From Pomphorhynchus laevis (taxonomy: Eukaryota; Acanthocephala; Palaeacanthocephala; Echinorhynchida; Pomphorhynchidae), in contig WNNJ02001187.1 of assembly GCA_012934845.2 (NCBI GenBank), positions 124,001 through 188,000 of the forward strand: a DNA stretch of 64,000 nt, in the 5' to 3' direction. The position numbers and the translations under genes were made by a program. Position 1 is the stretch's first letter, and each line of letters begins with the position of its first letter. Below, piece after piece: positions 2,142-62,415 of the stretch. The notes beneath the pieces are model-generated. The model made no database searches. It worked only from the letters and a program-made list of their open reading frames with translations, and was not told the DNA's origin.

Positions 2142-2215
2142 CAATCAATCCAGTTCCTGATCAATCCGGGATTACTTACAATCAATCCAGTTCCTGATCA
2201 ATCCAGGATTACTTA
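2142..2215 (+). repeat. A1 5' monomers, 37 bp x 2
   Basis: Two nearly identical units (2142-2178 and 2179-2215) containing CAATCCAGTTCCTGATCAAT and GATTACTTA. The CAATCCAGTTCC core is the same as the 16-base monomer upstream of D5 ORF1 (52557-52652), although A and D have different ORFs. Confidence 0.85.
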
Positions 2216-2364
2216 AACGGAACAATATAATAACATACAAGCGTATACCTCGTTGTCTCACGATTACAAAGACCAAAAAATATAAGAAGGGCAGAATCAA
2301 TAACTCATTATCTGACGACTGTTACACTCAGTTAGAAGTAGGCTGCGATGCGCCAAACTGTGAT

Positions 2365-3486
2365 GTGTGGAGCATTGTCAAAGTCAAGAGTAAAGATCAG
2401 GCGATATATCACTTGCGATCATTCATGTGCGGCTTTTGCAGTGCTGTTATACGAAGGGCTACAAGGAGTGAGCAAAACAAACCTACCGATGATAATGATA
2501 ATAACCAATGTACCAATTCATGTACAGACACCACAAAACAAGCCGATCAACTAGAGATCTCCCCTCACGTCCAGAGTAAAACACAACATGATAATAGCCT
2601 TTCTGTGGCTTCAACGCCAACTCGAGTGTGGAAAAGGGGACATGAGAGGTCATATACGATTACTAAGATAGTTTCTGATGACGATTCGCACATCATTTCA
2701 TCTACGCTAGAAAATTACTTGCCTCCTAAATCAGTAGTAAATGCCACAAGTTCCAACATTGAAGTTGAGCCTCAATGCCGGATTGGCGACAGTGTTTTAC
2801 GGACTTCATTGAATTCAAAGCATGCTCTTATAAATGTTGCACCATGTGATAAGCCAATTATCGACAACAATGACACCAGTGTCCAAGCAAATTCGTCGTC
2901 CAGCTTGTGCACGTCTTCAGACAACAGATCCCCAACCCATATAGCATCGAACTTTTCCCCTACAGAAAATAGTGAAGTTCGACATGCGAAGTCGGTTGAG
3001 ATAACTCGGCATCATTATGACAGGTCATATAGCGTGTTATTCAGCGAACTTACTGAGTCTAATTCCGCAAACTCACAGGAACATATGGACCATGACGTGT
3101 CTATTTTGCGTAAGGTATTATCCCATCTATTGCATGAAGGTGATGAAGAGTTAGCATCGTCTATACACGTGAAGAAGCTATTTCGGCTTGGTAAAAGAAC
3201 ACAGGAGAAACCAAGACTGTTGAAGGTGATATTGTCCTCTAGTGATCATGTGCGCATGTTGTTATCACGTGGATATCGTCTTAGGGGGTTGCCATTTCGT
3301 ATCCTTCGTGACCTTTCGCCAGATGAGCGATTACAATTACGAAAAGCAAACATCGAATTGAGACACCGGCTTTCTCAAGGTGAGGCTAATATATGCATAC
3401 GGGATTTTCGGGTTGTCAAGTGGCGTCCTGTCGTACGTTGGAAACAGTTGGCTCCTTTAACTGTCGGGACCCCTGTTTCCATGTAA
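2365..3486 (+). CDS. A1 ORF1 (zinc-finger RNA-binding protein), start lost
   Basis: 373 residues from the first in-frame ATG, but the frame is open upstream and encodes the expected N-terminal finger (VGCDAPNCDVWSIVKVK, then FMCGFC). The ATG at 2365 is therefore internal and would destroy the finger. Relatives begin MTKKT, MTRKT or MKKAN; the equivalent codons here start at about 2260 with ACG ATT ACA AAG, suggesting ATG changed to ACG (inference). A Ser/Thr-rich linker follows, then a C-terminal RNA-binding-like block (LFRLGKRTQEKPRLLKVIL) and the terminal motif VVKWRPVVRWK. The 3' end overlaps ORF2 by 94 bases in the -1 frame. Confidence 0.8.
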   Translation: MWSIVKVKSKDQAIYHLRSFMCGFCSAVIRRATRSEQNKPTDDNDNNQCTNSCTDTTKQADQLEISPHVQSKTQHDNSLSVASTPTRVWKRGHERSYTITKIVSDDDSHIISSTLENYLPPKSVVNATSSNIEVEPQCRIGDSVLRTSLNSKHALINVAPCDKPIIDNNDTSVQANSSSSLCTSSDNRSPTHIASNFSPTENSEVRHAKSVEITRHHYDRSYSVLFSELTESNSANSQEHMDHDVSILRKVLSHLLHEGDEELASSIHVKKLFRLGKRTQEKPRLLKVILSSSDHVRMLLSRGYRLRGLPFRILRDLSPDERLQLRKANIELRHRLSQGEANICIRDFRVVKWRPVVRWKQLAPLTVGTPVSM

Positions 3487-6377
3487 ATTCAGAGAACACT
3501 GACCATTCCTTAGGGTATCTGATTGTATTTGATAGACCGTGCCTTAGTAAAACCAAAAAGGATTCCAATGCAACTCGTTGCTATTTATCGGTAGGTTATT
3601 CAAATTTACGAAGTCTTCCTGCACAACTTGTAGAGCTTCGATACCATGTTGAGGTTAATGCGTATGATATATTCTGTGTTAGTGAGTCATGGCTACATGA
3701 ACACATCTTGGATGCCACTGTAAATATTCCAGGTTATCGTCTACTTCGAGGGGACAGGAGGTCCAGTATGCGAGGGGGCGGTGTTGCAGTGTACGTTCGA
3801 GACCATTTGCTAATTTCTGACATCGATCAAGTTTGTGATCCGCAAGGCTCGTTCGAGAGTATTACCTTTCATATTGGGTATGATCGTGTTGGTATCAGTC
3901 TCTGCGTTGTATATCGCTCACCTTCTATGATCACTGATTGTAATCTTCTGAAGTCAGTATTGCGATCGATAAGTATCAGTTCTCATTTCCTTCTTCTAGG
4001 AGACTTCAACCTACCTAGATCAGATTGGCGGCAAACAATATTTGATGATGGCACCGTCGTAGAAAGAGAAATATCCCACTTCCTCGCTGATGAACTCTGA
4101 CTAGTACAACACATTCAAGAGCCCACACGATTTTCTTCCCATAATAATGATACTATACTTGACTTGGTTTTTTCCAAACGTCTTGAAGACATAGCTCGAG
4201 TGGATTATCTTCCACCGATAGGTAACTCTGACCACTGCGTGCTATCACTACAGGTCACCCCAAACTTTAAATTCCGCAATTTTACGGCTCCCATCGTAAA
4301 ACGGGTTTGGTCAAAAGTGCTTGATGAGCAAATTTTATCTTTCTGTCAACGTCGTCCACTATCTTTAACAAATACTAAAGAAGTCTCACTAAAAGTGATT
4401 GGGGATTACCTTTTAGGTATTTCTGACGTGTTTGCACCAAAGCGTATCATCTCGCCAAATACTAAATATCCTGTTTGGTTCGATAAGGACCTGAGATTGA
4501 TGTTGCGAGTACGAAATCGTCTTTGGAAGTTATCTCGTTCGCTTCCGTATTACGCCAACATTTATAGGTATCTTAGGAACGTCTGTACTCGTATGAAAAC
4601 GTTAAAACGTGATAAATTCGAATCTACAATCATCAAGGAAGTTAATCGCAACCCCAAGCTATTTTGGTCATATGCTCGGCAAAACGGAACGCTCAACTCT
4701 GCAATCAAGCATGTGCACTCTGAATGTGGCTTGGTTACAAATGAAACTGATATAGCTGAGACCTTCGCATCCTCGTTCTCTTTATCCACTTTACCACATT
4801 GCGATTCTCATATGATATGGTACGGGTGCTCTATCCCTCCGCGTAATGAATCCCGGCCAATTTGCGTTACTGAAATTCAAGATTATCTCAATAATATTCG
4901 TCCTTTTAGCGCAGCTGGCCCCGATGACATCTCCCCATACCTGCTCAAAGCTTTATCGAGTTACCTGGCACCATTCCTGACTATTATCTTTGATAAAATT
5001 CTGGCCACTGGCAGTGTCCCAGAAGATTGGAAAACTGCAACCGTTGTTCCTATTCCCAAAAAAAATTTTGCATCATCCTGTGGTGATTATAGGCCAATAA
5101 GCTTAACCTCTTCTCTGTGCAAAGTTCTCGAACGCGCCATCAGCACTAGAGTCTACGATCATCTTGTCTCTCTTGGTATACTATCGTCCGCTCAACATGG
5201 TTTTCGTCACTCCCGTTCTTGTTTGACGAACTTGCTTACCGCGCGCGAAACTTGGACCCAGTCGTTAAGTTTTGGTAGCTCACTCGATATAATCTTTATT
5301 GATTTTTCGAAAGCCTTCGATCGCGTCCCTCATGATGGGATGATTAGGTTGTTAGCACACTACGGAGTATCCTCCATGTTATGCAATTGGATTCGTGATT
5401 TTTTGGACGGGAGATCATTTCAGGTGAGGGTTGGCAATAGCATGTCTTCTACTAGGTTAGTTAAATCCGGAGTTCCGCAAGGTACAGTCCTTGGTCCCTT
5501 GCTTTTTATTATATTTCTCAATGATCTTCTGTTACGCATAAACAGTCCCTGCCTGGCATTCGCAGACGATGTGAAAGTGTGGTGCGATAGCATCTCAGAT
5601 CCTGATGGCCGGCATCTACAACATGATCTCCAGACAATCTACGACTGGAGCAGTGCTACCGGTATGACCATAAATGTAGATAAGTGCGTTCATATGAAAC
5701 TCGGCAAATGTAAATCTGATCATGAATTCTATTTAGGATGTTATAAGCTTCACAACATTTCTGTTCATAGAGACCTAGGGATTATTTTGAATAACGACCT
5801 TAAAACACGACCGAATACCGATTATATCTACGGTAAAGCCATGAAGGCCTTGTATTGTATTAAGAACACATTTAGTAAGCTGCATCCAAAATTATTTAAG
5901 CATCTCTACTGTGCGTTAGTCCGTCCGCATGTGGAATACTGCATCCCATCAACTTTTCCATCCACCAAGGCTGAGATGAAAAAGACCGAGTCGATTTTAC
6001 GTAGAGGAACCAAACTTTGCATTACATCTCTTTATTCTTACAATGAGCGCCTAGCTTGCTTAAAAATGCCTTCAACGGCCCAGAGGCTACTATATTTAGA
6101 TCTTGTAGCGATGTGGCATTTGGTTCGTGGAAAAGAGGGGTTCCCATCCAATTCGATAAAATTGAGAAATTCGCGTCGCAGAGGTCACTCCCTTACGTTA
6201 TTTAAATTCCCCCATGGCAAAATAAGGAGTGTGAGTAGGCTTTCCCACCGCGCATTGAATGTTTGGAATTCGCTGCCTGAAGACGTCGTCAATGCTACTA
6301 GCAATAGACACTTCAAGAAGATGCTGCTGAAGTGGATTGTGAACTCTAATTTGGATTCGTGGATGTATTTTAATTGA
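3393..6377 (+). pseudogene. A1 ORF2: APE endonuclease-reverse transcriptase with one stop
   Basis: One continuous frame broken only by TGA at 4098-4100, right after the endonuclease motif LLGDFNLPRSDW. N-terminal APE-type endonuclease motifs: YSNLRSLPAQ, SESWLHE, VVYRSPS, GDFNLP and, after the stop, SDHCVLSL. RT motifs: VVPIPKK, DYRPISLTSSLCKVLER, QHGFRHSRS, IFIDFSKAFDRVPH, GVPQGTVLGPLLF and FADDVKVW. The FADD box replaces YADD. The C-terminal region ends RGHSLTLFKFPHGK as in CR1-like elements, with no RNase H. It would nick target DNA and prime reverse transcription. One nonsense codon separates the endonuclease tail from RT. Confidence 0.9.
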
Positions 6378-6456
6378 TATTTTAAAATGTAATTTGTGAA
6401 CAGTTGAAACAGCCATTTGCGGATAGTAACTTGTACACTATAATAATAATAATATT

Positions 6457-6902
6457 TACAATAAGTATCTATACCACATTTAAACTTATTTAATGATATA
6501 TAATTTTTTTAGTACTAAGATTTTATTAACAAACATTTAAAATCGTACAATTATGGTTCCAGCAAATGAGCCTCTATTCATTAAATATTTGCAATATTGA
6601 AATCATTATTGGATTATCTTAATTCCCGGTGAATTTATCGACGACCGAGAACCCATTGAAATCATGTTCTTTGTTGTGGTACAAAGGAGCGTTTGTTTAG
6701 CTTTACATCAGACAAATTCTTGAAACATCTTGCAAAAGTACAATCAGTAAAACAAAAAGTACCTTATTGCGACATGATTACTCACTTACGGACAGGAATT
6801 TCGGTGGAACTTGCAAAATGCTCCAGTTTGGCGATTAGACGAACAGCTATACGGCCGTTGATTAATATTCATGATATATATTTTAACAACAATATTTATT
6901 AG
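6457..6902 (+). pseudogene. E-family C-terminal fragment (plus)
   Basis: From about 6600, plus-strand peptides in two frames match the end of the E polyprotein: DKFLKHLAKVQ, then a Y-x-E/D-x2-T-x-LR block and LAKCSSLAIRR, as in 7734-7961. It lacks the RT. It faces a second, oppositely oriented E tail at 6973-7545. The bases between the A1 tail and 6600 show nothing recognisable. Confidence 0.6.
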
Positions 6903-7545: not shown

Positions 7546-7566
7546 ACCAACTTGACATAAGAGTGC

Positions 7567-7601
7567 GTGTGCAATGTTGAAGTTATGTCAACATTGCACA
7601 C
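7567..7601. repeat. Perfect palindrome, 14-base arms
   Basis: The arms GTGTGCAATGTTGA (7567-7580) and its complement (7588-7601) have a 7-base loop. It sits at the 5' edge of the truncated E fragment. Confidence 0.85.
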
Positions 7602-7733
7602 ATTATATAATTTTTTAAAGGAAATATTTTTTAAATAGATTTACATTTGGAGTTCCCGCAAATGGGCTTTAACACAAAACGTATTACACATACAATATAT
7701 TACGATAGATCAAGTTAGTTAAAGGTTACAATA

Positions 7734-10805: not shown

Positions 10806-10975
10806 TAAGCTTGTAAGTAGTTAGTAATCAAGAATTTTAAATGTAAGTAGTTAGTTATCAAGAATGTTTAAACTCTAAACTGAGGACATCCATCAATATC
10901 TGAATAAAGAAGACATTTAACGTCTAATGGGGATGGTTTCGGATGCAGACTTTTAATCTTCTCAAATACCGTGAT
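10806..10975 (-). repeat. Leader motif repeats plus E scrap
   Basis: Two units of TGTAAGTAGTTAGT(A/T)ATCAAGAA (about 10811 and 10841), reading ACTACTTACA in element sense. They are followed at 10874-10975 by a roughly 100-base near-duplicate of 9818-9920 (the E1 segment between the CXC ORF and RT), so part of another E copy abuts the E1 5' end. Confidence 0.7.
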
Positions 10976-17179: not shown

Positions 17180-17309
17180 TGTTGTATGTATATTAGATTG
17201 TATGTTATTTTATTGTAAGAACTTTAATAACCAATGATTAGTCACTATTTTTCTGGTAAATTGTGTATATTAATCTTGTAATTTGTGTAAGAACTTTAAT
17301 AACCAATAC

Positions 17310-21482: not shown

Positions 21483-22760
21483 CGAATTTTTGGCCTTGTG
21501 TGAAGAACGTGAAAATTTCCGTTGATTTTACGTATAGATAAGGATGATTCGCCGTTTGTTTCACGTCGATGTTTTTCAATGCGAGCTAAATTGAGCTGGG
21601 CAATATCAGAAGGGGAGCGGTCAGGAAAGATACGGCAAGTAGATGAAGTGGTAAGAAGTTTAAAACGTTGGGAGAGTACCGAAGAGGCATGTGAACTATG
21701 TCGGAAAACGATTTTTAAGAGTGGAGGACTGAGATGATTGGATTTAGTGGATTTGTTTAAACGAATAAAGGATACAGGAGCGATATTATTGAAGAGTGAT
21801 GGGTTATCATCAGGAAGTATGGTTGCTAGGATAGACCTGATAGCAGATACATCATCATCGAGGCGAGATTGTGGAGAAGCAGATTCGTAAAGCTTTAAGT
21901 TTGATATGATTATACAGCGATCGCGCGAAGGAAAACGATTTCGTGGAAGTGGTGGACGGACAGAGCTGGTAGGAGTCGAGGTAGATGAGCAGATAGAAGT
22001 GGAAATGACAGGGGTGCTTGATAAAGAATTAATATTGGTTGGAGCAAGTGTGACAGGAGCGGGGTGTTGAATCGGTTGATCAGAGATGTGACTGGATATG
22101 ATTTTAAATGAAGGATGTAAATTATTTGGAAGTGTTACGTGGGAGGTAGAGTAAGGAGAATTAAGATAGGTTGGGGTCATGAGTGGCAGGAATGGAGTGT
22201 TGAATCAGTTGATCGGAAATGTTGCTGGAAATGATTTTGATGGAAGGGTGTAAATTATTTAGAAGTGATACGGGGGAGGTCGAGTAAGAAGTACGTGAAG
22301 AGAATAAAGAAGTTTGAGATTTATTTAGATTGGGGGAGGAATACGAAAGAGGAGGTACGAGATGAAAAGCTTTACCGTTAGCATTGTTAGAATGAGAAAG
22401 ATTAATGGAAGTTTGGTACGTAGTTGAACGAGGAGTGTGTGAGAGAGTAGGTTCAATAATGGGATTATATGATGCGAAGTCAGGTGTTGATGCGAGGGAA
22501 ACATCTAAAACAGCATTGGTCTGAGTGGTCGTGTGTGATACAGGAGTAGAGGAGCAGGATAGCTGTAGTAGTCGTACTAATGTACAAAAACCGCATGTGA
22601 ACTGTTTACGTTTATACATCGAGTGGTCGGATATTTTAACACGAACAAGTGTCCATACATCACAATCTTTGGAATCGCATCCAACTTCGAAGCTGGTATA
22701 ACCATCATTGCATTCCGATGTGGAAGATTCTTGATCAGGAACAGGGATCTGGAACTGACA
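21446..22760 (-). pseudogene. D1 ORF1 (zinc-finger RNA-binding protein)
   Basis: The N-terminal finger FEVGCDSKDCDVWTLVRVK and KQFTCGFCTL is readable from about 22715 to 22560. The ATG seen in D0 is missing because the monomer array runs directly into the coding part. A Ser/Thr/Pro-rich linker follows with a frameshift near 22170. The C-terminal half has FPSRDRCIIISNLKLYES, RLDDDVSAIRSILATILPDD, SFIRLNKSTKSNHLSPPLLK and VLHTRPKIRWRP. The end overlaps ORF2 by 37 bases in the -1 frame. Confidence 0.75.
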
Positions 22761-22930
22761 GGAATAATCTGGAACTGACAGGAATAATCTGGAACTGACA
22801 GGAATAATCTGGAACTGACAGGAATAATCTGGAATTGACAGAAATAATCTGGAACTGACAGGAATAATCTGGAACTGATAGTTATAATCTGGAACTGACA
22901 GGAATAATCTGGAACTGACAGGAATAATTG
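22751..22930 (-). repeat. D1 5' monomer array, 20 bp x 9
   Basis: Nine units of GGAACTGACAGGAATAATCT, with only a few substitutions. It is followed by TTGTAAGTAGTTG, which in element sense is the CTACTTACAA leader word. Confidence 0.95.
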
Positions 22931-23025
22931 TAAGTAGTTGTTAGTTAGCAGCTAAGAATTTCAATTGTATGTTTATCAGAAACCAAATTTTTTTAAGGTA
23001 AACCAAAAATTTTTAAGGTCAATTT

Positions 23026-23955: not shown

Positions 23956-24200
23956 TCAGTGTATTAGTTTTCGTTGTCGTTAAAACTCGTTGTTGCAGAT
24001 TTCCGAAGCTCGTTGATCGATTAAAAAATAAGCTTGTTGAATTTTGATAATCCTCGTTGTATTAGTTTTCGTTGTTGTATGTTATGATCTTGTAAGTAGT
24101 TAGTAATCAAGTAGTTAGTTTTCGTTGTCGCCGAAACTCGTTGCTGCAGATTTTGTAAGTAGTTATTATCAAGATCATTTGAACTTGCGTGTTTAAGCTC
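23956..24200 (-). promoter_or_regulatory. E2 5' leader with two ACTACTTACAA motifs
   Basis: Plus-strand TTGTAAGTAGTTA(GTAATC) occurs at about 24089 and 24154. Between and around them are reiterated TCGTTGTCG and CTCGTTG(T/C)TGCAGAT words. The same GAAATCTGCAACAACGAG-type text reappears on the plus strand at 26930-26990. Confidence 0.5.
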
Positions 24201-25166: not shown

Positions 25167-26381
25167 TTAAACAGCTGGACCTAAAATTCCACTAATTGTT
25201 AACGGGTTCTCAAAGTAGATAGCAACTGTGCTTCGCTCTTGTATAATTTGAACTGGCATATGTGTTAATTTGTCATTCCATTTAGTTATCAGTACGCTTT
25301 CGTATATTTGTCCAAATTTATTGTCACACTCAAGCCTTATTAGGTTAATCATGGCACTTCCAGTGCAAACATTGCTTATACCATAATCTGTCCATAGAGT
25401 AATATGTGCGTAACCTGTATCATCACAAGTCGGATGACAGTATGTATTTCCTTTGCACCTACCATTTTTATTGAAATAACTAGTGTTAAACCATAAATCG
25501 TTTAATCTGTGTTCAACAGGTACTTTCACGCGTGCCGACCAGCATTTATCAGTAAACAACAATCCCACAATAAGCAAGTCGTAAATGCGACCCTGGTTTT
25601 CGAAGAATCGATCCTTGTAACAATTCCATTTATCACCTAAATCTGGTATAAAGCATAGGGTACAATGAAGAATCAATCTTTCAGCTTTAGCTTGATTTGT
25701 GCCACTGACGTTGTTATTATTCAGTTGCTTTTTAAATGCAACAGACATTACAGCAAATTGATTAGCAATTTGATTAAGTGAACTGCATTGCTTTTCATTG
25801 AAGAACAATGCCCAATACTTGTATCTTATCGGACAGAACCATTTTAGAAATTGTGTAATGCAACTTTGACTCACGTTGTGCATGTTGCGAGTAGCAAGAT
25901 GAATGGGACAAAATGCCCATGGTGTTGTAGTTTCAGCAAAAATAATATAATATCCGTATTTACGTGCTAGTTGAACATATGGTTCAATTTCCCTTGACCA
26001 GCGAATGTTAGTATTGTCAATTATTATTGTTCTTACGTTTAGGTTCATAGCAGTTTCGACATCTTGTTGGCACATCATATGCGCATATTTGAGTTCGCTC
26101 TTATTAAACTTATATTGTGGCATTGATGATCCAGGGCAGTAACGAAGAAAGTAATGATCAGCACTAGCCAAAACATGAACCGGATATAGTCGACATATTT
26201 TTTCGGCAAGTGTAGATTTTCCACTACCTGGTAGACCTCTCAGGATAATTAACACACGGGTTTGCAAAAGGTATTCTAAACTATCGGCTTTATTCATATA
26301 CCAGTAATCTTCATTTTTAATCAGATTAGATGGTCGAGTATCTTCTTTACATCGACATTGGTTACGTCTTTTAATAGACAT
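25167..26381 (-). CDS. CNP: 2',3'-cyclic-nucleotide 3'-phosphodiesterase-like protein (CNPase)
   Basis: 404 residues, one uninterrupted frame. Residues 44-180 form a polynucleotide-kinase-like P-loop domain: LRGLPGSGKSTLA at 47-59 (Walker A K55/S56), ASADHYF near 72-78 and IIDNTNI at 120-126. Residues 237-400 match the 2H phosphoesterase half of CNPase with both HxT motifs, LHCTL (H239/T241) and AHITLW (H326/T328). Family knowledge: CNPase converts 2',3'-cyclic nucleotides to 2'-nucleotides and is related to RNA-repair enzymes. The middle segment (FLKWFCPIRYKYWALFFNEK) aligns in order with the vertebrate linker. The P-loop domain alone resembles N4BP2-like kinases; the second HxT half argues for CNPase. 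No intron is visible. Confidence 0.85.
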   Translation of the reverse strand: MSIKRRNQCRCKEDTRPSNLIKNEDYWYMNKADSLEYLLQTRVLIILRGLPGSGKSTLAEKICRLYPVHVLASADHYFLRYCPGSSMPQYKFNKSELKYAHMMCQQDVETAMNLNVRTIIIDNTNIRWSREIEPYVQLARKYGYYIIFAETTTPWAFCPIHLATRNMHNVSQSCITQFLKWFCPIRYKYWALFFNEKQCSSLNQIANQFAVMSVAFKKQLNNNNVSGTNQAKAERLILHCTLCFIPDLGDKWNCYKDRFFENQGRIYDLLIVGLLFTDKCWSARVKVPVEHRLNDLWFNTSYFNKNGRCKGNTYCHPTCDDTGYAHITLWTDYGISNVCTGSAMINLIRLECDNKFGQIYESVLITKWNDKLTHMPVQIIQERSTVAIYFENPLTISGILGPAV

Positions 26382-28875: not shown

Positions 28876-28999
28876 GCATTAGAGATCAACTTCAAAAAAT
28901 ATTTACAGCTTAAGCATACAATAAATAACATACAATTAAAACACTCTATCGGCATTCAGCACAACAACTACAATCTAAACAACCACACCGATAATATTT

Positions 29000-36445: not shown

Positions 36446-36868
36446 TTCATTTATTATATTTTATTTGCAAAATCATATCCACTAGCGATGTATGACCTAT
36501 TGGTGCTGCACAACGTTTTTAGCATACAATTGAATCGCTAAGAAGCTTGTTTTTGAAGCTGTCATATCATGCAATCAAAAGTCGTACATATCTCAGCTCT
36601 TTGTGAATTTTGTGTAAAGATTTTTCTCTTTCTTTATGCTACTTTTAATTGTTTTCTATTTTAAGATTGAATAATTCTTGATAATGGTGTACGAACGTGC
36701 CACTTAAATATCGGATCAAAATTGTATAATAAATAATTGTCTTTTCGTCTTATTTACAATATAATGACAATTAAAGACAAAAAATGTCTTTAATTAAATG
36801 TCCTTAAATTAAAGACATATCATCTTAAATATCGGATCATAATACAACGTTTGAACACTAGTTTGAAC
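36446..36868. other. AT-rich spacer with a palindrome
   Basis: Contains AATTAAAGACA / TGTCTTTAATT (36769-36779, 36785-36795), repeated again imperfectly to 36820. No coding content. Confidence 0.5.
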
Positions 36869-36916
36869 TTTCTTGGCTGATTAATAAACTACTTACAATA
36901 AAATAACATTATAAAA

Positions 36917-37206
36917 GAACGATTATAGAAGAACGATTATAGAAGAACGATTATAGAAGAACGATTATAGAAGAACGATTATAGAAGAACGATTATAGAA
37001 GAACGATTATAGAAGAACGATTATAGAAGAACGGTTATAGAAGAACGATTATAGAAGAACGATTATAGAAGAACGATTATAGAAGAACGATTATAGAAGA
37101 ACGATTATAGAAGAACGATTATAGAAGAACGATTATAGAAGAACGATTATAGAAGAACGATTATAGAAGAACGATTATAGAAGAACGATTATAGAAGAAC
37201 GATTAT
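36917..37206 (+). repeat. B1 5' monomer array, 14 bp x 21
   Basis: Head-to-tail GAACGATTATAGAA, starting at 36917 with one visible variant (GAACGGTTAT). It lies in the ORF1 leader, about 140 bases before the ATG. The homogeneity implies recent expansion. Confidence 0.97.
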
Positions 37207-37349
37207 CAAGAAGAAGTTATAAGTGTTCAAGATAATTTCTAAACAACTTAAACAAAAAGAACAACTAGAACAAAAAATTTAAACAGCTTAAACACACAAT
37301 ATATAAACATACATTTACAAAACAACTTGCCAGCGGAACAAAACACATA

Positions 37350-38813
37350 ATGACACGAAAAACATCGAAGCTTAAAGCTAAGAAGTCAAATGTAAACACC
37401 GTATCTCTAAACGCAAGCATAATTGATGAGTGTACATCTGTCCAAGTCCAGTGTTCGAACGATTTGTGTGACACCTGGACCACTATTTGTATGAGCAAGT
37501 TAAAAAAGAATTCCGATGATGCTTATTTATGTGGCTTTTGTGCTGTGAAGGAGCTTAATATTTTGAGAAGACGTTTGGTCGAATTTGAAGAAGCACATAA
37601 TCAATCTCTAAGTCGAACCGTTCTCATGGACGATAAAATATCCTCTTCCAAAGCTCAACATCCTTTTAAAAATGTAGTTCCTGTGGATGCGCGGGTTGGT
37701 GATGATACGACTGCCTGCGTTATTCCCCTTGATGAGAATACAAGCGATCGCAAATTGCAACAAATTGCTGATAATACAGTCCCTAAAGTATCACAGACTA
37801 CGAACGATATGACTACATGCGTTGTCGTTGATCGTCCTTCTGCCGATCTTTCTTTACATATTGACAACCGAACTCGGACAACTGGAGCTTATGTAGGCAG
37901 CAATGGACCTGTAGCATCCCGTATTTGGAAGCGGGGATATTTGCGTTCTTCCTATTCAACTCCAAATTCAGTGTCAAGACAGTATGACGAAGTCTCGAAA
38001 TATATTCTGTCTGATGAAGCGATTTCACAAAGTGATACACCGAAGATGCCGAATGCTCACAATGCGACATTTCGTAATATCTCAAACAAAGATGGTCAGG
38101 GCGTTTCCTCGGGCAACGCACACGTCACCTTGATGTCACCATCAAGTTCTTTAGAGTCTCATGATTCACATACCCAGACAGACTTATCTAGCTTGCGGAA
38201 TATTGTTAAAACGGATACTCAAATACCCAGCTTACGTGCATGTACAGATACACAATCTGCTGTGTCCTGTGATGGTCTCGATAGGGTGATCTCAAATAAG
38301 CGGATATATAATAGAGGTTGCTCAGTTATTCTAGCTAATGTGCCCGAGTCTATCTTCGAGAATGCGCAAGCACGACTGAATGACGACATTCAGAGTTTGA
38401 GGTCTATTCTGGCACATGTACTTGGCTCCTGTGACATCGAGACAGTCCAAAAAGTTAAACTTATCGCTCTTTTCCGTCTAGGTAAGCGTAATGCTTTAAA
38501 TAATAAACCCCGACTACTCAAAGCTGTCTTCCATAACCAACTTCATGCTACCTTAATGTTGAGAAACTCGTTCCGTCTCAAAGGGTCTAATATTCGACTG
38601 CTGAAAGATCTTGATGTATCAGAACGAAAAAAATTATCGAAGGTTAAAAAAGAACTATCATCTCGTGTTGCTAAAGGAGAAACAAATCTCTATGTGAAAA
38701 ATTTTCAGATTGTGAAGCGACGCACTTGGCTGAGTTGGAGCCCACTAGTCATGTCGCCTCGCGTGCATTCTGTAATCGAAACGGGCTCGTCTACTCTGCC
38801 TATCAGAGTCTAA
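37350..38813 (+). CDS. B1 ORF1: zinc-finger RNA-binding protein
   Basis: 487 residues from MTRKTSKLKAKKSNV; this start agrees with J (MTKKTNKQ) and has a basic N-terminus. Residues about 33-66 form a finger: VQVQCSNDLCDTWTTICMSK and AYLCGFCAVKE, i.e. CxxxxCxxxW...CxxC, PHD/RING-like. A Ser/Thr-rich linker follows. Residues about 320-470 form the conserved C-terminal block: CSVILANVPESIFENAQARL, LIALFRLGKRNALNNKPRLL, NIRLLKDLDVSERKKLSKVK and ETNLYVKNFQIVKRRTWLSW. Expected to coat element RNA. The end overlaps ORF2 by 88 bases in the -1 frame. Confidence 0.85.
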   Translation: MTRKTSKLKAKKSNVNTVSLNASIIDECTSVQVQCSNDLCDTWTTICMSKLKKNSDDAYLCGFCAVKELNILRRRLVEFEEAHNQSLSRTVLMDDKISSSKAQHPFKNVVPVDARVGDDTTACVIPLDENTSDRKLQQIADNTVPKVSQTTNDMTTCVVVDRPSADLSLHIDNRTRTTGAYVGSNGPVASRIWKRGYLRSSYSTPNSVSRQYDEVSKYILSDEAISQSDTPKMPNAHNATFRNISNKDGQGVSSGNAHVTLMSPSSSLESHDSHTQTDLSSLRNIVKTDTQIPSLRACTDTQSAVSCDGLDRVISNKRIYNRGCSVILANVPESIFENAQARLNDDIQSLRSILAHVLGSCDIETVQKVKLIALFRLGKRNALNNKPRLLKAVFHNQLHATLMLRNSFRLKGSNIRLLKDLDVSERKKLSKVKKELSSRVAKGETNLYVKNFQIVKRRTWLSWSPLVMSPRVHSVIETGSSTLPIRV

Positions 38814-41692
38814 ATGGTTTAGCGTCCGGGTTATTTGGATGTGTAAGGGGTGATAGGAATACTCCCAGAAGTATGTTGGGGCATTGTGAAATACTCCATG
38901 GTAATGTTCGCAGTCTTATATCGAAGATAGATGAACTGAGATATAGAGTTCAGTTAATTCGTCCTAAATTACTCGCTATCACAGAATCATGGCTATATAG
39001 TGATATTATTGATAATGAAGTCTCCATCCCTGGTTATCGGGTTTTCCGCAGTGATCGTAAAAGTGGAAGAGGTGGAGGTGTTATTCTTTATGTGAGCAAC
39101 GATGTGAAAGTAACTATTCTTAGCACTTCTTCTTCTAATAAAGTCGAAAGTTTGTGGTGTCGGGTAAAATTCATGCATACCGCTCCGCTTGTTCTGGGGG
39201 TAGTATATCGTTCACCCTTGGCCGCCACAGATAAACTGATTGGGGAAGTAGAACTTTATTCTAAAGGTACCTCCAATGTTTTAATACTTGGTGACTTGAA
39301 TATGCCTTCGGTTGATTGGAATTCGTATACGGCTTTTCCTACTTGTGACCATGCTTCCTATGACCTTCTGGAGTGTATCATCTATTGTGGTTTAACTCAG
39401 CATGTTCAAAATTTCACTCGTTTTGCTAGTGACAGTAGATCTCTATTAGATGTATGTTTATCTTCGAACAGTGAGATTATTAACGCTATCCGTTATGATG
39501 CCCCGATCGGTATGTCTGATCATTGCGTATTGATCATTAGGTTAAGGTTTCAAGAAGATACTCGAGGTCCGCGTGAAAATCAAGTGGTTAATGCTTTCAA
39601 AACCAACACAGGTGCAATTAAGTCAATACTTTCAACAGTTACCTGGCCAGATCCCGCTGTTGTTGGAGTACACGGCGCGTGGAATTACTTTCAGAGAACC
39701 TTAGAGTCGCTGCTTATTTTATTCTCTCCACTTAGAAGCAGGACACGTCGAAAAGATTCTCCCTGGTTCGATTCTGAGTTACGTTCAGCATTGAGGACTC
39801 GTAATTTGATCTTCAATCGCTACAAAGTTGGGGAGTGTAGTTATGATGTTTTTAAACAGGCAAGAAATTTATTCAATTCATTGAAGAGAAAGAAGCGGTG
39901 TGCATTTGAGAATGCATTAGCTAACAAGTGTAAATACGATTTAAAGGTCCTTTTTCAGTACCTATCAAGCAGGGGAGCTGTTGATTCTTCGATTTGTCAC
40001 TACTTCTATGACATTTCTGCGAATGACCTAGCTGAAGAGTTTGCGGCACACTATTGCACTTCAGTAGAGCCCGCAAATGAACATCAAACTTTTTGTATGG
40101 AAGCTAGTGTGCTGAACACTTACTCTGACACGTGTCTTGAGTTGGACCTTGACAATTTGATAACGCCAGCTAAAGTCTATTCCGAATTACGCCGTCTAAA
40201 AGCAAATAATTCAAGAGGTTGTGACTTACTACCTTCTGTTTATCTGCGCAGATTAGCAGGCTCAATTTGCGTTCCTCTCTGTGCAATTTTTCGCCAGTCA
40301 ATCTTGGAAAGATCTCTTCCTAATGTGTGGAAGCAGTCAATTGTTCTTCCCTACTTCAAGAAGGGAGATCGCTCTTCCGTCGAGAATTATAGGCCGGTGA
40401 GCATTACCTGCATTTGCTGTAGAGTGTTGGAGAGGTTTGTGCATCGCTACATGGTTGAGTTTTTTCGTGTAGGAAAAATTTTAGTCCCTAATCAGCACGG
40501 ATTTCGGGAGGGTTATTCAACTGTTTCAAATTTGCTTGATGCTCATCTTGATTGGACAGCGAATAAGACACATTATATCGATACAGACATTATATTCTTC
40601 GACTTTTCTAAAGCTTTTGATAGAGTAGATCATGGTCTACTTCTTCAGAAACTTGTCAATACTGGACTCCCAAACATAATAGTTGATTGGATTAGAGAAT
40701 TTCTTCGTGATCGTTGCTTTCGAGTACTTGTCGATTGGTCATTGTCTGTGTCTAGAGAATGTCATATTGGAGTACCTCAAGGTTCAGTTTTGGGTCCGCT
40801 TTTATTCAGCATTTATGTTAACGATTTGCCTGGGTGCATTCGCTCTCGATCATGTTTGTATGCAGATGACTTAAAAATATGGCGGCCCATTCATTCATGT
40901 GAGGATGTTGATAATTTGCAAACTGACATAGATAATTTGGAGTTGTGGGCGGCGTTAAACAAGCTTGTGATAAATGTTTCGAAATGCAAACACATGCGTA
41001 TTATTGGTAATGCTCGCAAGCAACTAACATCAGCTTGTTACACATATAAGGACTGTATTGTGGAAAGTGTCGATAGTTACAAAGATTTAGGAGTATGGGT
41101 TACCTCTAATTTATCAACCAAAAAGCACACTGATCAAGCTTGTGCCAACTCCAATAAAATGATAGGTATGATTCGACGCGCGTTTGTTCGCGTTAATCCG
41201 ACTGCTCTTCGGCCTCTGATTTTAGCACATGTATTGAGTAGACTTTTATATGCAGCTCCGGTTGTATACCCACGTACTGTGCATGAACATAAGAAATCAG
41301 AGAGGGTACTTCGCAGGGCAACAAAGCTAGCACCAAAGTTGGCGTCGCTGCCTTATGAAGACAGACTGAGATCATTAGGACTTGAGACCGTCACATGGAC
41401 CCGTCGGTACATGGATATGTGCCTTGTTTGGCATTTATTCCAACGTCCTCATCACCCTCTTCGGAGTAGGGTTCAACTACGTTGTTCAAATGTTCTTCGC
41501 GGTCATTCTTTAACTATTCGAAGAAACAGAGTACAGAAATTGGGCGCGATGCAATTTGATAGAAGAATTGTTGAGCTGTGGAACAACCTTGATGCAGACA
41601 CCGTTGGATGCAGTTCACTTAGTGCTTTTAAAAGAAGACTACGAATGGATCAAGCAATGTTTCGTGTTGCATTTCCTTATTTTAAAAACTAA
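38726..41692 (+). CDS. B1 ORF2: APE endonuclease-reverse transcriptase
   Basis: 988 residues, no stops. APE endonuclease, residues 55-275: GNVRSLISKIDEL (N60), AITESWL (E87), VVYRSPL, LILGDLNMPSVDW (D190, N192), SLLDV (D242), SDHCVL (D265/H266). Linker 290-480. RT, residues 535-820: SIVLPYFKKGDRSSVENYRP, QHGFREGYSTVSNLL, IIFFDFSKAFDRVDH (D626), IGVPQGSVLGPLLFSIYVND, YADD at 712-715. C-terminal region: RRATKLAPKLASLPYEDRLR and RGHSLTIRRNRVQK. It nicks DNA and primes cDNA synthesis at the target. All catalytic residues are present, and ORF length matches intact CR1-group ORF2. Start chosen by overlap with ORF1, as in A1 and A2. Confidence 0.92.
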   Translation: MAELEPTSHVASRAFCNRNGLVYSAYQSLNGLASGLFGCVRGDRNTPRSMLGHCEILHGNVRSLISKIDELRYRVQLIRPKLLAITESWLYSDIIDNEVSIPGYRVFRSDRKSGRGGGVILYVSNDVKVTILSTSSSNKVESLWCRVKFMHTAPLVLGVVYRSPLAATDKLIGEVELYSKGTSNVLILGDLNMPSVDWNSYTAFPTCDHASYDLLECIIYCGLTQHVQNFTRFASDSRSLLDVCLSSNSEIINAIRYDAPIGMSDHCVLIIRLRFQEDTRGPRENQVVNAFKTNTGAIKSILSTVTWPDPAVVGVHGAWNYFQRTLESLLILFSPLRSRTRRKDSPWFDSELRSALRTRNLIFNRYKVGECSYDVFKQARNLFNSLKRKKRCAFENALANKCKYDLKVLFQYLSSRGAVDSSICHYFYDISANDLAEEFAAHYCTSVEPANEHQTFCMEASVLNTYSDTCLELDLDNLITPAKVYSELRRLKANNSRGCDLLPSVYLRRLAGSICVPLCAIFRQSILERSLPNVWKQSIVLPYFKKGDRSSVENYRPVSITCICCRVLERFVHRYMVEFFRVGKILVPNQHGFREGYSTVSNLLDAHLDWTANKTHYIDTDIIFFDFSKAFDRVDHGLLLQKLVNTGLPNIIVDWIREFLRDRCFRVLVDWSLSVSRECHIGVPQGSVLGPLLFSIYVNDLPGCIRSRSCLYADDLKIWRPIHSCEDVDNLQTDIDNLELWAALNKLVINVSKCKHMRIIGNARKQLTSACYTYKDCIVESVDSYKDLGVWVTSNLSTKKHTDQACANSNKMIGMIRRAFVRVNPTALRPLILAHVLSRLLYAAPVVYPRTVHEHKKSERVLRRATKLAPKLASLPYEDRLRSLGLETVTWTRRYMDMCLVWHLFQRPHHPLRSRVQLRCSNVLRGHSLTIRRNRVQKLGAMQFDRRIVELWNNLDADTVGCSSLSAFKRRLRMDQAMFRVAFPYFKN

Positions 41693-42140: not shown

Positions 42141-43376
42141 TCAGTGAAACTCTCTAGATGTAAGTATACATGGAGCCACACACGTCCAAATGTAAATAAA
42201 CCAACATATCACTGAGGATGAGGCTTTTATCCAAACTGCACCTTGGTTTTGAACGAACGCATGTATGTCTGACGTCGACTTCAGCCAGCTAGTTAATGTC
42301 ATCGTAACGTAGAGAGATGCAAGTGCCAGCAATATATGTAAAGTGTGATAGCTGTATTCAGGTTGGTCGTCATCGACTACAATTCCATCTCCCAAATCTT
42401 TATCGCTTGTACCATGTACTCGTTTTGTAATAGTTATGGAAAAAACAGAATATACGACTGATAGAATAAATAAAACCAAGCTCGTGGCCAAAATAACGTT
42501 ACTGGATAATCCGCTTCCAAACGAGAAGTTGCTATTTGGATCAGATGAAATAGCGGTCCATGTTAGATAAGACACGTAAACAGAAACAAGACTGGATTGT
42601 AGAATACCGGATGTAGGTTGATACTCACGTACAATAGGCAGTATAGATACCACAGTGCCTATAATTGATAGTCCTATATTAATTGTGACAATAACAATAT
42701 GAAGGGTCAAATGGCCATAGTATATAAGAATCAATGTATATATTATTACTGATCCAATAATGGAACCGAATGATATAATGGCCTGTGCAAACATCCACAA
42801 TTGACTGCCACCGGCTTCGATACGTTCGAGCCATGATTCATTTAGAAGATGAGCAAAATCAACCACACAAATTAACTGGATAACTATGAATATCAAACCG
42901 CCTGAAAATCCTGCTAGACGCATAAAAACAAGCAATCCATTAGTTGTGGGTGTCGCGTAGCCGGCAATTATAAAAGCACTCAGCATTAATAGCTTTATAC
43001 CATGAACACTATTGTGAAACTTTGCTCGAATTGATTGCTTACTTTTTATGCCAATGCTCAATATAGTCATCAGTAGTGAAAATAGAAAATAGCTGAAACC
43101 AATTTTATACGAACTTAAATATCCAGCCATTAATTGGCAAGACTCTGTAGTTATATTATTCGGGCATATGCGAGGAATACGGACTAAGAATGATGCAACA
43201 CTTGGAACCATACTTATAGTTTGTAAAATTGCAGTAAACATTAGCATCAAAGCGTATGCTATTCTTGTTCCAATTGGACCATCCATTTTCGGACAGCACG
43301 AACATAAGAATTGACCAAATATGGAACCAAAGCAAGATGTGACAAATGAAACTGGAGCACTGATAATGGCACCCAT
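42141..43376 (-). CDS. SERINC: Serine incorporator family membrane protein (SERINC/TDE1)
   Basis: 411 residues, single frame, slightly short for the family (about 420-470). About ten hydrophobic segments. Family signatures in order: Cys-rich N-terminus (FLCSCCPK, 23-30), DFAHLLNESWLER (173-185), QPTSGILQSSLVSVYVSYLT (253-272), an acidic loop DDDQPEYSYHTLHILLALAS (335-354) and VWIKASSSVICWFIYIWTCV (381-400). SERINCs are multipass proteins linked to serine-lipid metabolism and lipid scrambling, and some vertebrate members restrict retroviruses. No intron is seen, unusual for the family. It could be a host gene in an intron-poor genome or a retrocopy; the intact frame favours a working gene. Paralogue unassigned. 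Confidence 0.92.
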   Translation of the reverse strand: MGAIISAPVSFVTSCFGSIFGQFLCSCCPKMDGPIGTRIAYALMLMFTAILQTISMVPSVASFLVRIPRICPNNITTESCQLMAGYLSSYKIGFSYFLFSLLMTILSIGIKSKQSIRAKFHNSVHGIKLLMLSAFIIAGYATPTTNGLLVFMRLAGFSGGLIFIVIQLICVVDFAHLLNESWLERIEAGGSQLWMFAQAIISFGSIIGSVIIYTLILIYYGHLTLHIVIVTINIGLSIIGTVVSILPIVREYQPTSGILQSSLVSVYVSYLTWTAISSDPNSNFSFGSGLSSNVILATSLVLFILSVVYSVFSITITKRVHGTSDKDLGDGIVVDDDQPEYSYHTLHILLALASLYVTMTLTSWLKSTSDIHAFVQNQGAVWIKASSSVICWFIYIWTCVAPCILTSREFH

Positions 43377-52507: not shown

Positions 52508-52556
52508 CAATTTAAACTTTCTTGATTACTTAATTAACTACTTACATTCCTGACCA

Positions 52557-52652
52557 ATCCAGTTCCAGGTCAATCCAGTTCCAGATCAATCCAGTTCCAG
52601 ATCAATCCAGTTCTAGATCAATCCAGTTCTAGATCAATCCAGTTCCAGATCA
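52557..52652 (+). repeat. D5 5' monomers, 16 bp x 6
   Basis: CAATCCAGTTCCAGAT with minor variants. The CAATCCAGTTCC core equals that of A1 (2142-2215) and differs from the 20-base D0/D1 unit. Confidence 0.92.
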
Positions 52653-52690
52653 ATTCATCAAATAACACAGTTTTAACAACAACGACGTCG

Positions 52691-58548: not shown

Positions 58549-58740
58549 GGTGGGCTCAGATACCCCTGGACCTGAGGCCGTAAAGAAGAAGTGGATTGAA
58601 GAAGACTACTATGACGAATTTAAGATTATGCTTGATTTTCGACTTATTGACTTGTTTTGTTGTTAATTATGTCTTCATTTAACTCTTTTGTATTTTAAGA
58701 AAACCTTTATTTATAAATGGTTAAAAGAAATGTGTTCTCC
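58549..58740 (+). repeat. G-type 3' tail fused to A3
   Basis: Immediately after the A3 RT box GKVLGP, the sequence GGGCTCAGATACCCCTGGA, GAGGCCGTAAAG and AAGAAGAC follows the G 3' UTR at 50560-50620 (GGGCTCAGATCTCCATGGAT, GAGGCCATAA, GAAGAAGAC). An A 5' part and a G-like 3' part are thus joined. 58740-58930 has nothing recognised. Confidence 0.65.
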
Positions 58741-58980
58741 TAATATAAGCAACTAATGCATTGAATGCGGTAAACAGCCAACTATCTTAAGCAAATATCT
58801 CGAAACTGCACCCTGTCAGTTGTTTTATCTAGCACATAAAAAACAGCATCTTTACTTGTTGCCGTAAATTGCATTATATCCAAAGGATAGAATTCATAAA
58901 GTAATAAAATAAGTTTGAGAGATTAATATACACAAACGTCTAAATACAATCTAATATACATACATTCTTACAACGGATTT

Positions 58981-59451
58981 ATGCGAGTACAATGCTACGT
59001 ATGCTGCCGGAATTTTATGCCTGTGACAAGTAGACTCGTTCGGCAGCACGGTCGAGGCTCAACTTGCCCTGGCTCCGGCAAGCCTCCAACGATTCACAAA
59101 CTAAATACAGCAGCTGCCTACTCCAATGGCAATCCAAACGCTTTCCCAAGCCTCCAAAGTTCGTTATCGAGCATGGAACTACTTTGCGAGAACGTACGTC
59201 TGGTTCGGCGAATACAACGTGCAGCGAGGCCCACAATAGCAACCAAGCTTGTCGAACTAATAAATGCTGTCGACGCTTGCCCGCTAAACAATAATCCATG
59301 GATACAACTACTCGGATTCGCGAAATCAGTCTTGCGCGTGCCACTAACGAACAGGGGTAACACTACTGTGTCGCTAGGGTCGACGTTAAAGTCAGCATGC
59401 ATGTCGTACGGTCCAGGGGGTAATCACAACAACCAGTACACCAAGAACTAA
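58981..59451 (+). pseudogene. H N-terminal zinc-finger protein part
   Basis: 156 residues: MRVQCYVCCRNFMPVTSRLV and RQHGRGSTCPGSGKPP. Cys5/8, His23 and Cys29 with the CPGSG end are typical of the finger opening a class of invertebrate RT polyproteins. Then a linker (PTIATKLVELINAVDACPLN, WIQLLGFAKSVLRVP). The frame breaks near 59450 and RT follows. Confidence 0.6.
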
Positions 59452-59500
59452 ACCTGTATAACGCCGGGTAGATCAACTTCGAAACAAGGTTTATAAAAAG

Positions 59501-61110
59501 TTGGAGGATAGTGATATTCGTGGAGCGGTACGACTGCTTGCCGATAACAACCAGCTGTTGAGTGCGGACGAGCAGACTATCGAGCTTTTGCGTCGCAAAC
59601 ATCCAGAACGGCGGTTTCTTTATAATAAAAGCTGCGCACGTCCGCGGTCAAATCTCGATTTAGGTCCACTTATTTCGGGTCCTTCTGTCTTGTCGGCTCT
59701 CCAGTCATTTCCACCGTCTTCTGCTGGGGGCGCTGATGGCTTGAGTCCTTCTCATCTACGTGACCTGGTTCGAGTCGTTCGAGTGGTGTCGCAGGAGACA
59801 TACTACTGAAATCTATTTGTGAGCTAACAAGTAACATCCTTGCGGGTAAAGTGGCAACCTCGATCAGGCCTATATTATGCGGAGCAAGCTTCTGGTTTTC
59901 GTAAAAAGGTACGGTGGAGTCAGGCCTATACCTGTTGGGTGTACCTTCCGCAGGCTAGCTGCTAAGGCGGCTTGCAGATTTGCTACCGAGAGAGTGGTTG
60001 ACATGCTTCTTCCAAATCAACTTGGCGTCGGTGTGCCTGGTTGTGTCGAGGCCGCAATTCATGCAGCGAGATGTTTTGCAGAACACGGTTTGGTAGGCAA
60101 TTCAGCGATGGTAAAGTTAGACTTTGAAAATGCCTTTAACTCAATCAGCAGAGGCGCAGTCCTTCAAGTTGTGAAGAAGGAAATCCCGGGGATCCAGGAC
60201 TTCGTGGAAATGTGCTACGATTACCCAAGCACACTTCTCTTCGAGGACAATGTGACTGATTCAAAAGAGGGAGTACAACAAGGGGATCCTTTCGGTCCTC
60301 TCCTGTTCTCACTTACCATAAACAGTCTGACCCACAGCCTTTTGTCACCATTAGCTGTTTGGTATCTGGATGACCGCTGCATAGGGGAGAAGTTTCCACT
60401 CTAATCAATGATATCGAACACATTCAAACTCAAGGAGCAAAAATTGGATTGTTTTTACGACCAGACAAATGCTAAGTGATTTCTAAAAGCGGTACCTATA
60501 TTCAACCTCTACTTGATATAATGCCAAACGGAAAAGTCTGTGATGTGTCATCCGCGGACTTGCTAGGCGCTCCGCTTTGCGCCGGATTTCACCTCGATAT
60601 GTTCTTGGAATCTGCTATCACACAACTTCAGCAGGTAGGCCCAAAGCTCTTAAAACTTGCGAAGCACGACGCCTTTTTTATACTTCGACATTGTTTGACG
60701 CTGCCAAAGATCAACTTCCTTTTACGCTCCGCACCGTGTTACACAAGCGGCCTCGTGAAAGCCTTCGACGTGGAAGTTTGCAGTTCTCTGGAGGAAATCC
60801 TTAACCTCAGGCTCTCTGACATAGCCTGGCGTCAAGCCTCACTACCTGTTAAAATGAGTGGACTGAGTGTGTTGCGTGTGGGAGAGTTATCTATACCGGC
60901 CCTTGTTCATCTGTTTCGCGCACGAAAGACTTAAGTGCGCTATTAATCCCAGAGCATTTGGCAAATCGCTTAGGCACTAGTGACTTTAACTACCGAACGG
61001 CGTCAGAAAGTTGGACAACTAAATTCGACCTGACTGTTCCAACGGATACAACCTTGCAAAAACGTAGGACAGCCCCATTGTTTGAGAAGGAATTCCGACA
61101 CCTGCCAACT
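59501..61110 (+). pseudogene. H reverse transcriptase
   Basis: Pieces: FPPSSAGGADGLSPSHLRDL (59501-59809); GGVRPIPVGCTFRRLAAKAA, VKLDFENAFNSISRGAVLQV, EGVQQGDPFGPLLFSLTINS, VWYLDDRCIGE (59877-60404); PNGKVCDVSSADLLGAPLCA, LPVKMSGLSVLRVGELSIPA (60476-60934); and PTDTTLQKRRTAPLFEKEFR near 61100. Catalytic LDFENAF and YLDD are intact; QGDPFGPLLF is as in the family. Two frameshifts and one stop. The restriction-like endonuclease normally C-terminal in this type is absent. The RT is distantly similar to E. Confidence 0.7.
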
Positions 61111-61129
61111 TAACGATACTGAAATATCA

Positions 61130-61250
61130 CAAACTATACAATTTTTTTTCTGTAAAGTAATCTGAATATATTACTATATATAGTAATATATTATATATAG
61201 TAATATATTATATATTATATATTTAATATAATTTATAAGGTAATTCGTAT
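61130..61250. repeat. AT-rich TATATAGTAATATATTA repeat
   Basis: Short reiterations of TATATAGTAATATATTA after the H truncation. 61250-62280 is AT-rich with nothing recognised. Confidence 0.6.
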
Positions 61251-62340
61251 AATTCATATAATTCATTAATATACAATTCATAAAGCGAATCTATTAGCGA
61301 TGTATGCCTTTACCGCTGTTTCGCTTCCTCTAATTGAAATATCAGTGAAAAATGTTCAACGAATTCTGCGTAAGTGGCACGCCAATGACGTGATTTGTCA
61401 GAGAAAGTGAATACTTGTTGAAAGTTTGGAAGATGTTTTTGGTTAAAGGACTAAAATGTTGATTTTTTATCAGTGAATAAATGTAAATTGCTGTTAAACC
61501 ACAGTAACTTCTGCTAATCCCATAAGCATTTCGATAAATTCGGTATTCAAATAGTAGTCGATGGTGTTGAAGTACTTGGTAGTCCAGTTCGAACGATCTA
61601 CTTTACTGGACAGTTCGTAATGGAAAAATTAGCAAAGTAGACTTAAGTATCCACTATAGTATCCACTATTTTAATGCTTTAATTTATTCAATACAATACA
61701 GATGGATTTATTTTTAGATAACATACGAGTGTTAACCTTCATATTCAAACATTTGCATGATAAAATATTCGATTATAAATACTAAACCCACAATCTTCTT
61801 CCATTTCAAATATATAGTTATTACAGGAACGGAGAAGAAAATATCCTTTATTTGATAAAAATTCTATATTTCGATAGCTCCTGCTATCAGCATCAGGATT
61901 ACAAAAAAATGTTTCACAATTTGTTTCCCCCGTTGATTTTGAAAATGCTTATATTTTATCATTTGAAAGTAATTTGTTATTTCGCATTATTCTAGAAGCG
62001 TATTTTATTAAAAAGAACCTAATTTAATACTTAATAATAAATCCGATTACAACCTTAAATTAAATTATAATTTATTATTTCAATAAAATAAGACCTTAAA
62101 ATAAGTCTTGGGTATTGAAACTCTTACACAAATTACAATAACTTCTTTTAAAACACTTCATTTGGGAATGCTTACCGCAAACAAAACAGCGAAGTCACAA
62201 GTTACAAATACTAGTCAAACATTATAAACCTTGAGAAAGTTGTCAATCTAACACTTATCAGGAGTTTAAACTATCCTGATACCCATTAACTACTTACAAG
62301 TAGCATAATTTTGAGTTGCATTTCTTTGAATTCTTACAAA

Positions 62341-62415
62341 CTACGATTACTACGATTGCTACGATTACAACGTTTACAACGATTATATCGATTACAACGA
62401 TTACTTCAACGATTA
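62341..62415 (+). repeat. J 5' monomers, ACGATTAC type
   Basis: About eight degenerate copies of a 9-base (CT)ACGATTAC unit. They resemble the CGATTAT core of the B1 14-base monomer. Confidence 0.75.

Follow-up and report, generated by a model that had tools for sequence, protein, structure and literature searches.

The window, a stretch of 64,000 nucleotides from the acanthocephalan Pomphorhynchus laevis (C200:124001-188000), carries LINE-type retroelements of several families, referred to here by the letters A, B, D, E, H, and J. B1 can serve as an example. Its 487-amino-acid ORF1 (37350..38813, plus strand), which by translation has a PHD-like zinc-finger pattern, is followed by a 939-amino-acid ORF2 (38873..41692, plus strand) containing both an APE endonuclease and a reverse transcriptase (Exo_endo_phos_2, 2.6e-12; RVT_1, 2.5e-30), which identifies B1 as a LINE. 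Pfam recognizes reverse transcriptase in ORFs of A1 and B1 and APE in B1, but gives no hit for the ORF1s of A1, B1, E1, and J, and a search for homologues of the B1 ORF1 at E values up to 0.001 found none. The labels PHD-like and CXC-like were coined in this analysis. As the original prediction held, the families are clearly different by pattern, ORF1 being of the zinc-finger type in A, B, D, H, and J and cysteine-rich in E. The window also includes two apparently single-exon host genes, encoding a SERINC-like protein (42141-43376, minus strand) and an AAA_33 protein (25167-26381, minus strand). A search with the SERINC-like protein gave seven other proteins, among them two close ones (63% and 54%) encoded on short contigs and two from plants at 26-28%.

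What these elements were predicted to have in common is a pair of short words ahead of ORF1. The first, GATTACTAACTACTTACAA (word 1), has 98 exact copies in the genome (249.4 Mb in 3242 contigs were searched) versus none for the reversed control. Within three mismatches it occurs in the window at 10811, 10841, and 24090, all on the minus strand, where 0.02 places are expected. It had been placed upstream of ORF1 in A1, B1, D1, D5, E1, E2, and J, and at this tolerance E1 (10811/10841) and E2 (24090) do have it. At B1 36889, D1 22920, D5 52532, and J 62288, only an end like AACTACTTACA(A/T) is in place and the middle differs; the B1, D5, and J places instead match exons of other members of a small-RNA gene family (described below), while D1 22920 resembles two of these exons, SLd/SLe, by eye only. 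The A1 place at 2170 falls away, being by eye part of a local repeat and below the threshold for a leader copy; the leader copy of A1 is at 2081-2115 instead. The second word, AATAACATACAA (word 2), is found at five places within one mismatch, versus 0.95 expected, and none of 100 shuffles reaches five. The shared words are thus real, and the original observation holds in part. One exact copy of word 2 (28924-28935, plus strand) is outside the elements assigned here, and the nearest listed ORFs run on the other strand.

How far does the shared sequence extend? Removal of identical contexts reduces the 98 copies of word 1 to 93, and these form 41 clusters by downstream DNA, a crude clustering in which the largest cluster (n = 20) contains mixed families. 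With one context per cluster, the information outside the 19 searched letters drops to background directly past ..CTTACAA. In the other direction, conservation reaches back to about AGTTTAA, giving a module of some 33-36 nt with word 1 at its end. Downstream of it are LINEs with zinc-finger ORF1s, LINEs with cysteine-rich ORF1s, other LINE-like types, and short units. Regular expressions assign 16 of 102 word-1 loci to the zinc-finger class, 4 to the cysteine-rich class, 1 to another zinc-finger class, and 19 to a hammerhead-like class, counts that are lower bounds because 62 of the 102 loci were left unclassified.

Where might a module with so exact an end come from? One option in the original prediction was a host-derived leader resembling a spliced leader (SL), with a reverse complement that also looks like a splice donor. 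This reading was doubted at first, as word 1 followed by GTR is absent from the genome. It was revived because a donor search loosened to AACTACTTACAN{0,3}GTRNG (17 places in the genome versus 6 in the control, 11 of them fetched) found a gene family. The loci L140, L141, and L142 have two conserved regions in common, one 3' of TACA|GTAAGT and one upstream. L143, one of four AACTACTTACAGTAAG places, was set aside, being absent from the BLAST matches to the family intron. BLAST with one intron returns 13 places, all of which were fetched and 10 of which are distinct over -45..+58, and an intron pattern with up to three mismatches occurs at 15 places (control, 0), 13 of which were read, the other two being C3165:10182 and C2517:16357. 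The exon's TACA stands directly before GTAAGT in all 13 class-1 loci read. The upstream region of about 110 nt is conserved across the 10 aligned genes, and the exons vary among distinct genes.

A second class of genes, with TTTCTNATAAACATACA|GTAAGTTT at the exon-intron boundary, is found at 14 places within one mismatch (control, 0); one of these, L170, was read. The covariance model R1 recognizes two members there, one at 45.9 bits (E 1.8e-8) and the other at 27.0 bits (E 6.5e-4). SLk has GTAAGTTT on its donor side, and the second member, SLl, has an exon ending in AATAACATACA, which is word 2, before GC instead of GT. A variant of word 2, ATAAACATACA, is likewise an exon end of this second class. 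Since both sequences end exons of its members, word 2 and its variant can be assigned to the gene family as well. In total, 12 distinct genes were read, with an upstream region and intron in common and unlike exons that are cut at the donor. On C1549, C2736, and C82, some of the second-class genes lie at intervals of about 4,995 bp, suggesting an array of ~5-kb units. A weak match to the R1 model (20.0 bits, E 0.031) is present in the window itself at 7565-7640 (minus strand).

We regard these small genes as a candidate host family of SL RNA genes. They are called candidates because no canonical Sm site (RAU4-7GR) is conserved in the intron; GATTTG is present in 4 of 10 genes at +32, and isolated matches occur at +84, +146, and +149. 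For parasitic flatworms, a survey of SL RNA genes states that an exact canonical Sm motif has never been described (PMC12582326). The folds of three single SL RNAs are no better than those of shuffled sequences (z of 0.20, -1.57, and 0.02), and compensatory changes support 0 of 13 pairs in the consensus stems of 10 genes and 1 of 9 pairs in those of 12 genes. The exact word-1 exon (..CTTGATTACTAACTACTTACA) is joined to a GT donor at no place in the assembly. Its nearest gene is L153, and the commonest leader is thus without a known gene, because even this nearest exon differs by three mismatches. The option of a host-derived leader nonetheless gains its support from these candidate genes, whose exons are cut at GTAAGT.

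With the exons in hand, the 5' ends of the elements in the window can be read anew. The clearest case is B1, whose 41-nt leader (36857..36897, plus strand) equals the SLb exon in L141 (C179:8426-) at 41 of 41 nt. The identity stops at both ends of the exon, at the 3' end exactly at GTAAGT, where B1 continues with ATAAAATA instead. Around B1, the search for a target-site duplication gave no repeat longer than 10 bases, and the five repeats of 9-10 bases are A+T-rich and implausibly placed. As no duplication was found, it is the identity to the exon that places the start of B1 at the exon's first base. A1 has an SLk-type leader ending in TTTTGGTTTCTTATAAACATACA (2081..2115, plus strand), which differs from the L170 exon by one substitution in 20 nt; that gene was itself found by a pattern including this exon end. 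D1 has another SLk-type leader, TACCTTAAAAAAATTTGGTTTCTGATAAACATACA (22966..23000, minus strand; one substitution in 20 nt), and possibly an inner, SLd/SLe-like layer ending in AACTACTTACA (22929..22965, minus strand), which was seen by eye and is outside the thresholded matches. In E1, an outer layer known from the letters of the word-1 search (GAGTTTAAACATTCTTGATAACTAACTACTTACA; 10842..10875, minus strand) abuts an inner layer with a shorter 5' end (TTTAAAATTCTTGATTACTAACTACTTACA; 10812..10841, minus strand; three substitutions in 20 nt to L153). E2 has a word-1 copy at 24091..24112 (minus strand), also three substitutions in 20 nt from L153. H has two SLg/SLh-type leaders on the minus strand, each with two substitutions in 20 nt: one upstream of ORF1 at 17286..17305, compared with the L154 exon, and another at 17214..17233, followed by word 2 (17199-17213). 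The leader of D5, ending in CTTTCTTGATTACTTAATTAACTACTTACA (52510..52546, plus strand), is two substitutions in 20 nt from the L140 exon. J, finally, has an SLh-type leader upstream (62093..62128, plus strand; one substitution in 20 nt relative to the L155 exon, whose gene came from the intron search alone) and an SLc-type leader (62262..62298, plus strand) without any substitution in the last 20 nt relative to the L142 exon. Tandem monomers of 14-17 bp occupy the space between leader and ORF1 at 36898-37215, 52546-52655, and 22750-22928 of the window and in L017 and L018, and differ between the LINE families compared.

A comparison of the window with the 12 exons (20 nt, up to three substitutions) gives 10 places, whereas 200 shuffled sets average 0.195 and never exceed 2. 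The matches are not spread evenly over element and non-element DNA, as they would be if the original prediction were wrong. All 10 are in the sense orientation before one of eight LINE-type ORF1s, and the weight of this finding is in the ORF1 patterns, not in the ORF-length test, because 896 of 2000 random positions pass the latter. Host DNA gives the complementary result: in the 27 host-gene loci, all upstream regions (12,781 bases), neither the last 20 nor the last 26 nt of any of the 12 exons finds a match.

Is it only the exon that genes and elements share? The question was put to 129 sequences totaling 317,794 bases, which include the window and exclude the 13 SL loci and the 27 host-gene loci. 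The last 26 nt of the exon, with up to three substitutions, match there for 7 of 10 genes (15 matches). The segments -97..-72, -71..-46, +1..+26, and +27..+52 match for none of the 10 genes, and none of 1000 shuffled exons matches. Part of this is built in: the last 11-17 nt match by construction for L140-L142 and L170, because these were found with patterns containing the exon end. Among the genes found by intron alone (L151-L157, seven distinct exons), four of seven match; most loci in the target were fetched via word 1, and the exon of L153 is similar to word 1. That 3 of the 10 exons are without a match in the 129 sequences counts against the SL reading.

Taken together, these observations make it very probable that the words are the 3' ends of host SL exons, put on retroelement RNAs by trans-splicing and then reverse-transcribed. 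The host would have many small SL RNA genes, whose variable exons close with TACA at a GTAAGT donor. The RNAs of unrelated retroelements would receive an SL exon by trans-splicing, as host mRNAs would, and reverse transcription and insertion of the leader-bearing RNA would leave a genomic copy that has the leader as its 5' end. Such a succession of trans-splicing and reverse transcription accounts for copies of the exon only, a cut at the donor, a place near the 5' end, and sharing by unrelated elements. The case is built from genomic features, namely the gene family, the exon-only identity, the cut at the donor, the sense position before ORF1, a few stacked leaders, and the AG|ATG of host genes (described below); from these we infer that the genes are expressed, that their exons are spliced to element and host RNAs, and that events followed this order.

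The stacks deserve a closer look. In a further round of the cycle, a new leader would be placed ahead of the older one, itself cut at an AG close to its start, and repeated rounds would produce stacked, shortened leaders. One pattern finds three distinct tandem junctions at TACA|, in E1, L020, and L035. In E1, the outer layer's ..CTTACA is joined to TTTAAAATTC..CTTACA. Two of the three inner copies start where the AG would precede in AGTTTAA/AGCTTAA, and the third keeps the AG. Such stacked and shortened leaders suggest repeated cycles of trans-splicing and retrotransposition.

Leaders are also found on short units of several families, in which homology covers about 120 bp: the leader, a CTGANGA..GAAA core, and AATAAA, followed by unrelated flanks. 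Such units include L022, L023, L024, L030, L038, L045, L046, L054, L055, L069, L085, and L086, among others. We take CTGANGA..GAAA to be a hammerhead-like core motif. It is recognized by eye and pattern only; no Rfam hammerhead model matches any of 15 loci searched at the gathering threshold, or any of 6 loci searched with E values of up to 5. A Penelope-like reading of the units is likewise by eye only. In L055, a 12-bp duplication brackets the leader-bearing unit from outside, with ~60 nt of DNA between duplication and leader; in the other 27 of 28 units, any repeat is 10 bases or shorter. Near-perfect head-to-head palindromes are centered on the leader's 5' end in L038, L040, L069, L076, and L030, and in L040 one arm ends where the leader ends. 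The palindromes of L038, L040, and L069 point to fold-back or head-to-head events. In L137 and L015, the leader has local expansions of CTACTTACAA or ATTACTAACTACTTACA repeats. In eight extended loci, host retrogenes bearing a leader were not recognized in the translations by eye.

Could the leaders have arisen by other routes? Human L1 is known for template switching onto U6 RNA. A jump of the reverse transcriptase from element RNA onto SL RNA would likewise join exon copies directly to element 5' ends, and the head-to-head palindromes attest to odd events at those ends. An intact SL RNA would, however, contribute its 3' part, while the intron segments match for 0 of 10 genes and the matches stop at the donor, so that we consider such a jump very improbable. 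Insertion of unrelated elements at one preferred target containing the word, another option of the original prediction, would explain why many bodies adjoin the same word. It is scarcely credible given that the leader is identical to exons of SL-like genes elsewhere, that the L055 duplication (1 of 28 units) is outside the leader, and that all 10 copies in the window are in sense. Practically as poor are the chances that the small-RNA genes took their exons from elements. The exon sequences do occur in both, but there are 12 distinct genes with a common upstream region and intron and different exons cut at the donor, and for 3 of 10 exons the 129 sequences offer no element match.

The leader might also be a promoter or core-promoter module that LINEs trade among themselves, like Pr77 of trypanosomatids, where a common 5' promoter exists (PMC8190864). 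Leaders are near the 5' ends of many element families, and 5' blocks of 110-150 bp are common to different LINE bodies: L006, L014, L016, and L065 in one case and L010, L013, L017, L039, and L059 in another. A promoter module gives no reason for the leader to be identical to small-RNA gene exons, cut at the donor and without intron or upstream sequence, and it is an improbable source of the leader. It was on this exon-only identity that an earlier working idea, a core promoter made of an Inr and a downstream element, was dropped. The original prediction's template-switched promoter modules thus leave the leader unexplained, with SL intron segments at 0 of 10, but find an echo in the longer blocks. 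At the L006/L016 chimera, C666 and C2645 diverge from the query at the same position and continue alike. A breakpoint found at two places with the same sequence onward implies some exchange of longer 5' blocks, for which SL addition alone does not account. The L006/L016 junction was also considered as a donor, an idea dropped because L014 and L088 lack the GT.

If the leader is a spliced leader, then host genes should have acceptors for it. Of 27 Ras and UBC matches whose upstream regions were read, 23 remain after removal of three duplicates and of one region that lacks an in-frame ATG. In 10 of these 23 genes, an in-frame ATG has AG directly in front of it, which holds for 5 of the 143 other ATGs in these regions (p = 7e-7). 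The enrichment fits what trans-splice acceptors would give, though it could alternatively come from introns in the 5' UTR; short introns are present in this genome (matches ~40 bp apart).

How do these elements compare with known systems? SL-tagged retroelements are already known, as the flatworm (PMC12582326) and Hydra (PMC12220107) cases reported so far make plain. A survey of 24 flatworms describes 597 loci with a partial leader that are tied to mobile elements, mainly LTR and LINE, and were set aside; the partial leader is described as their sole SL-RNA feature, and they are read as possible retrotransposons that had been given an SL (PMC12582326). As in P. laevis, leader sequences sit on retroelement loci, but in the published account they are filtered out rather than dissected; here there are several SL variants and LINE classes, exact exon ends, layers, and hammerhead-like short units. 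In Hydra, SLs are reported on about 30% of Iso-Seq reads of transposable elements (PMC12220107), so that SL-bearing element transcripts are there seen in RNA and here as genomic 5' ends. DinoRL of dinoflagellates comes close in another respect: in retrocopies, the 5' leader is described as shortened by the next trans-splicing, and tandem relics as repeated cycles (PMC12014239). The layers of E1, L020, and L035 resemble these relic leaders, but DinoRL, as presented there, concerns host retrogenes and one 22-nt leader, in contrast to LINEs and short elements with many leaders of ~35-41 nt. Pr77 likewise gives autonomous and nonautonomous trypanosomatid elements (a LINE, SINE-like elements, and SIDER) a common 5' sequence and is described as activating transcription (PMC8190864, PMC4748587), whereas the leader here matches exons of SL-like RNAs. 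In chimeras of LINE-1 with first exons of mRNAs, a host exon is joined in sense at a splice junction before insertion, as here, but the reported chimeras involve 17 mRNAs rather than dedicated leader RNAs that are used repeatedly (PMC13174262). Searches of one open-access library found SL-tagged LINE loci only as the filtered set of PMC12582326 and did not turn up any of four leader strings. New here are the many SL variants, the exact exon ends, and the layering over several LINE classes.

Trans-splicing might even be a working part of the LINE life cycle. An element with no promoter of its own would have its read-through RNA freed and capped by the SL, the internal AG of the relic would serve as the next acceptor, and the 5' ends would be a layered record of SL variants. 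We put this forward as a speculation that is tempting but doubtful. The SL reading itself, if true, implies small RNAs of ~100 nt ending near ..GAGGACAAC. It would account for the common 5' sequences of unrelated retrotransposons without promoter exchange, and the 5' ends of elements would document both SL use and rounds of retrotransposition. It leaves a question for the biology of these elements: how would a LINE go on being transcribed if its 5' end is, in each round, a leader of the host?
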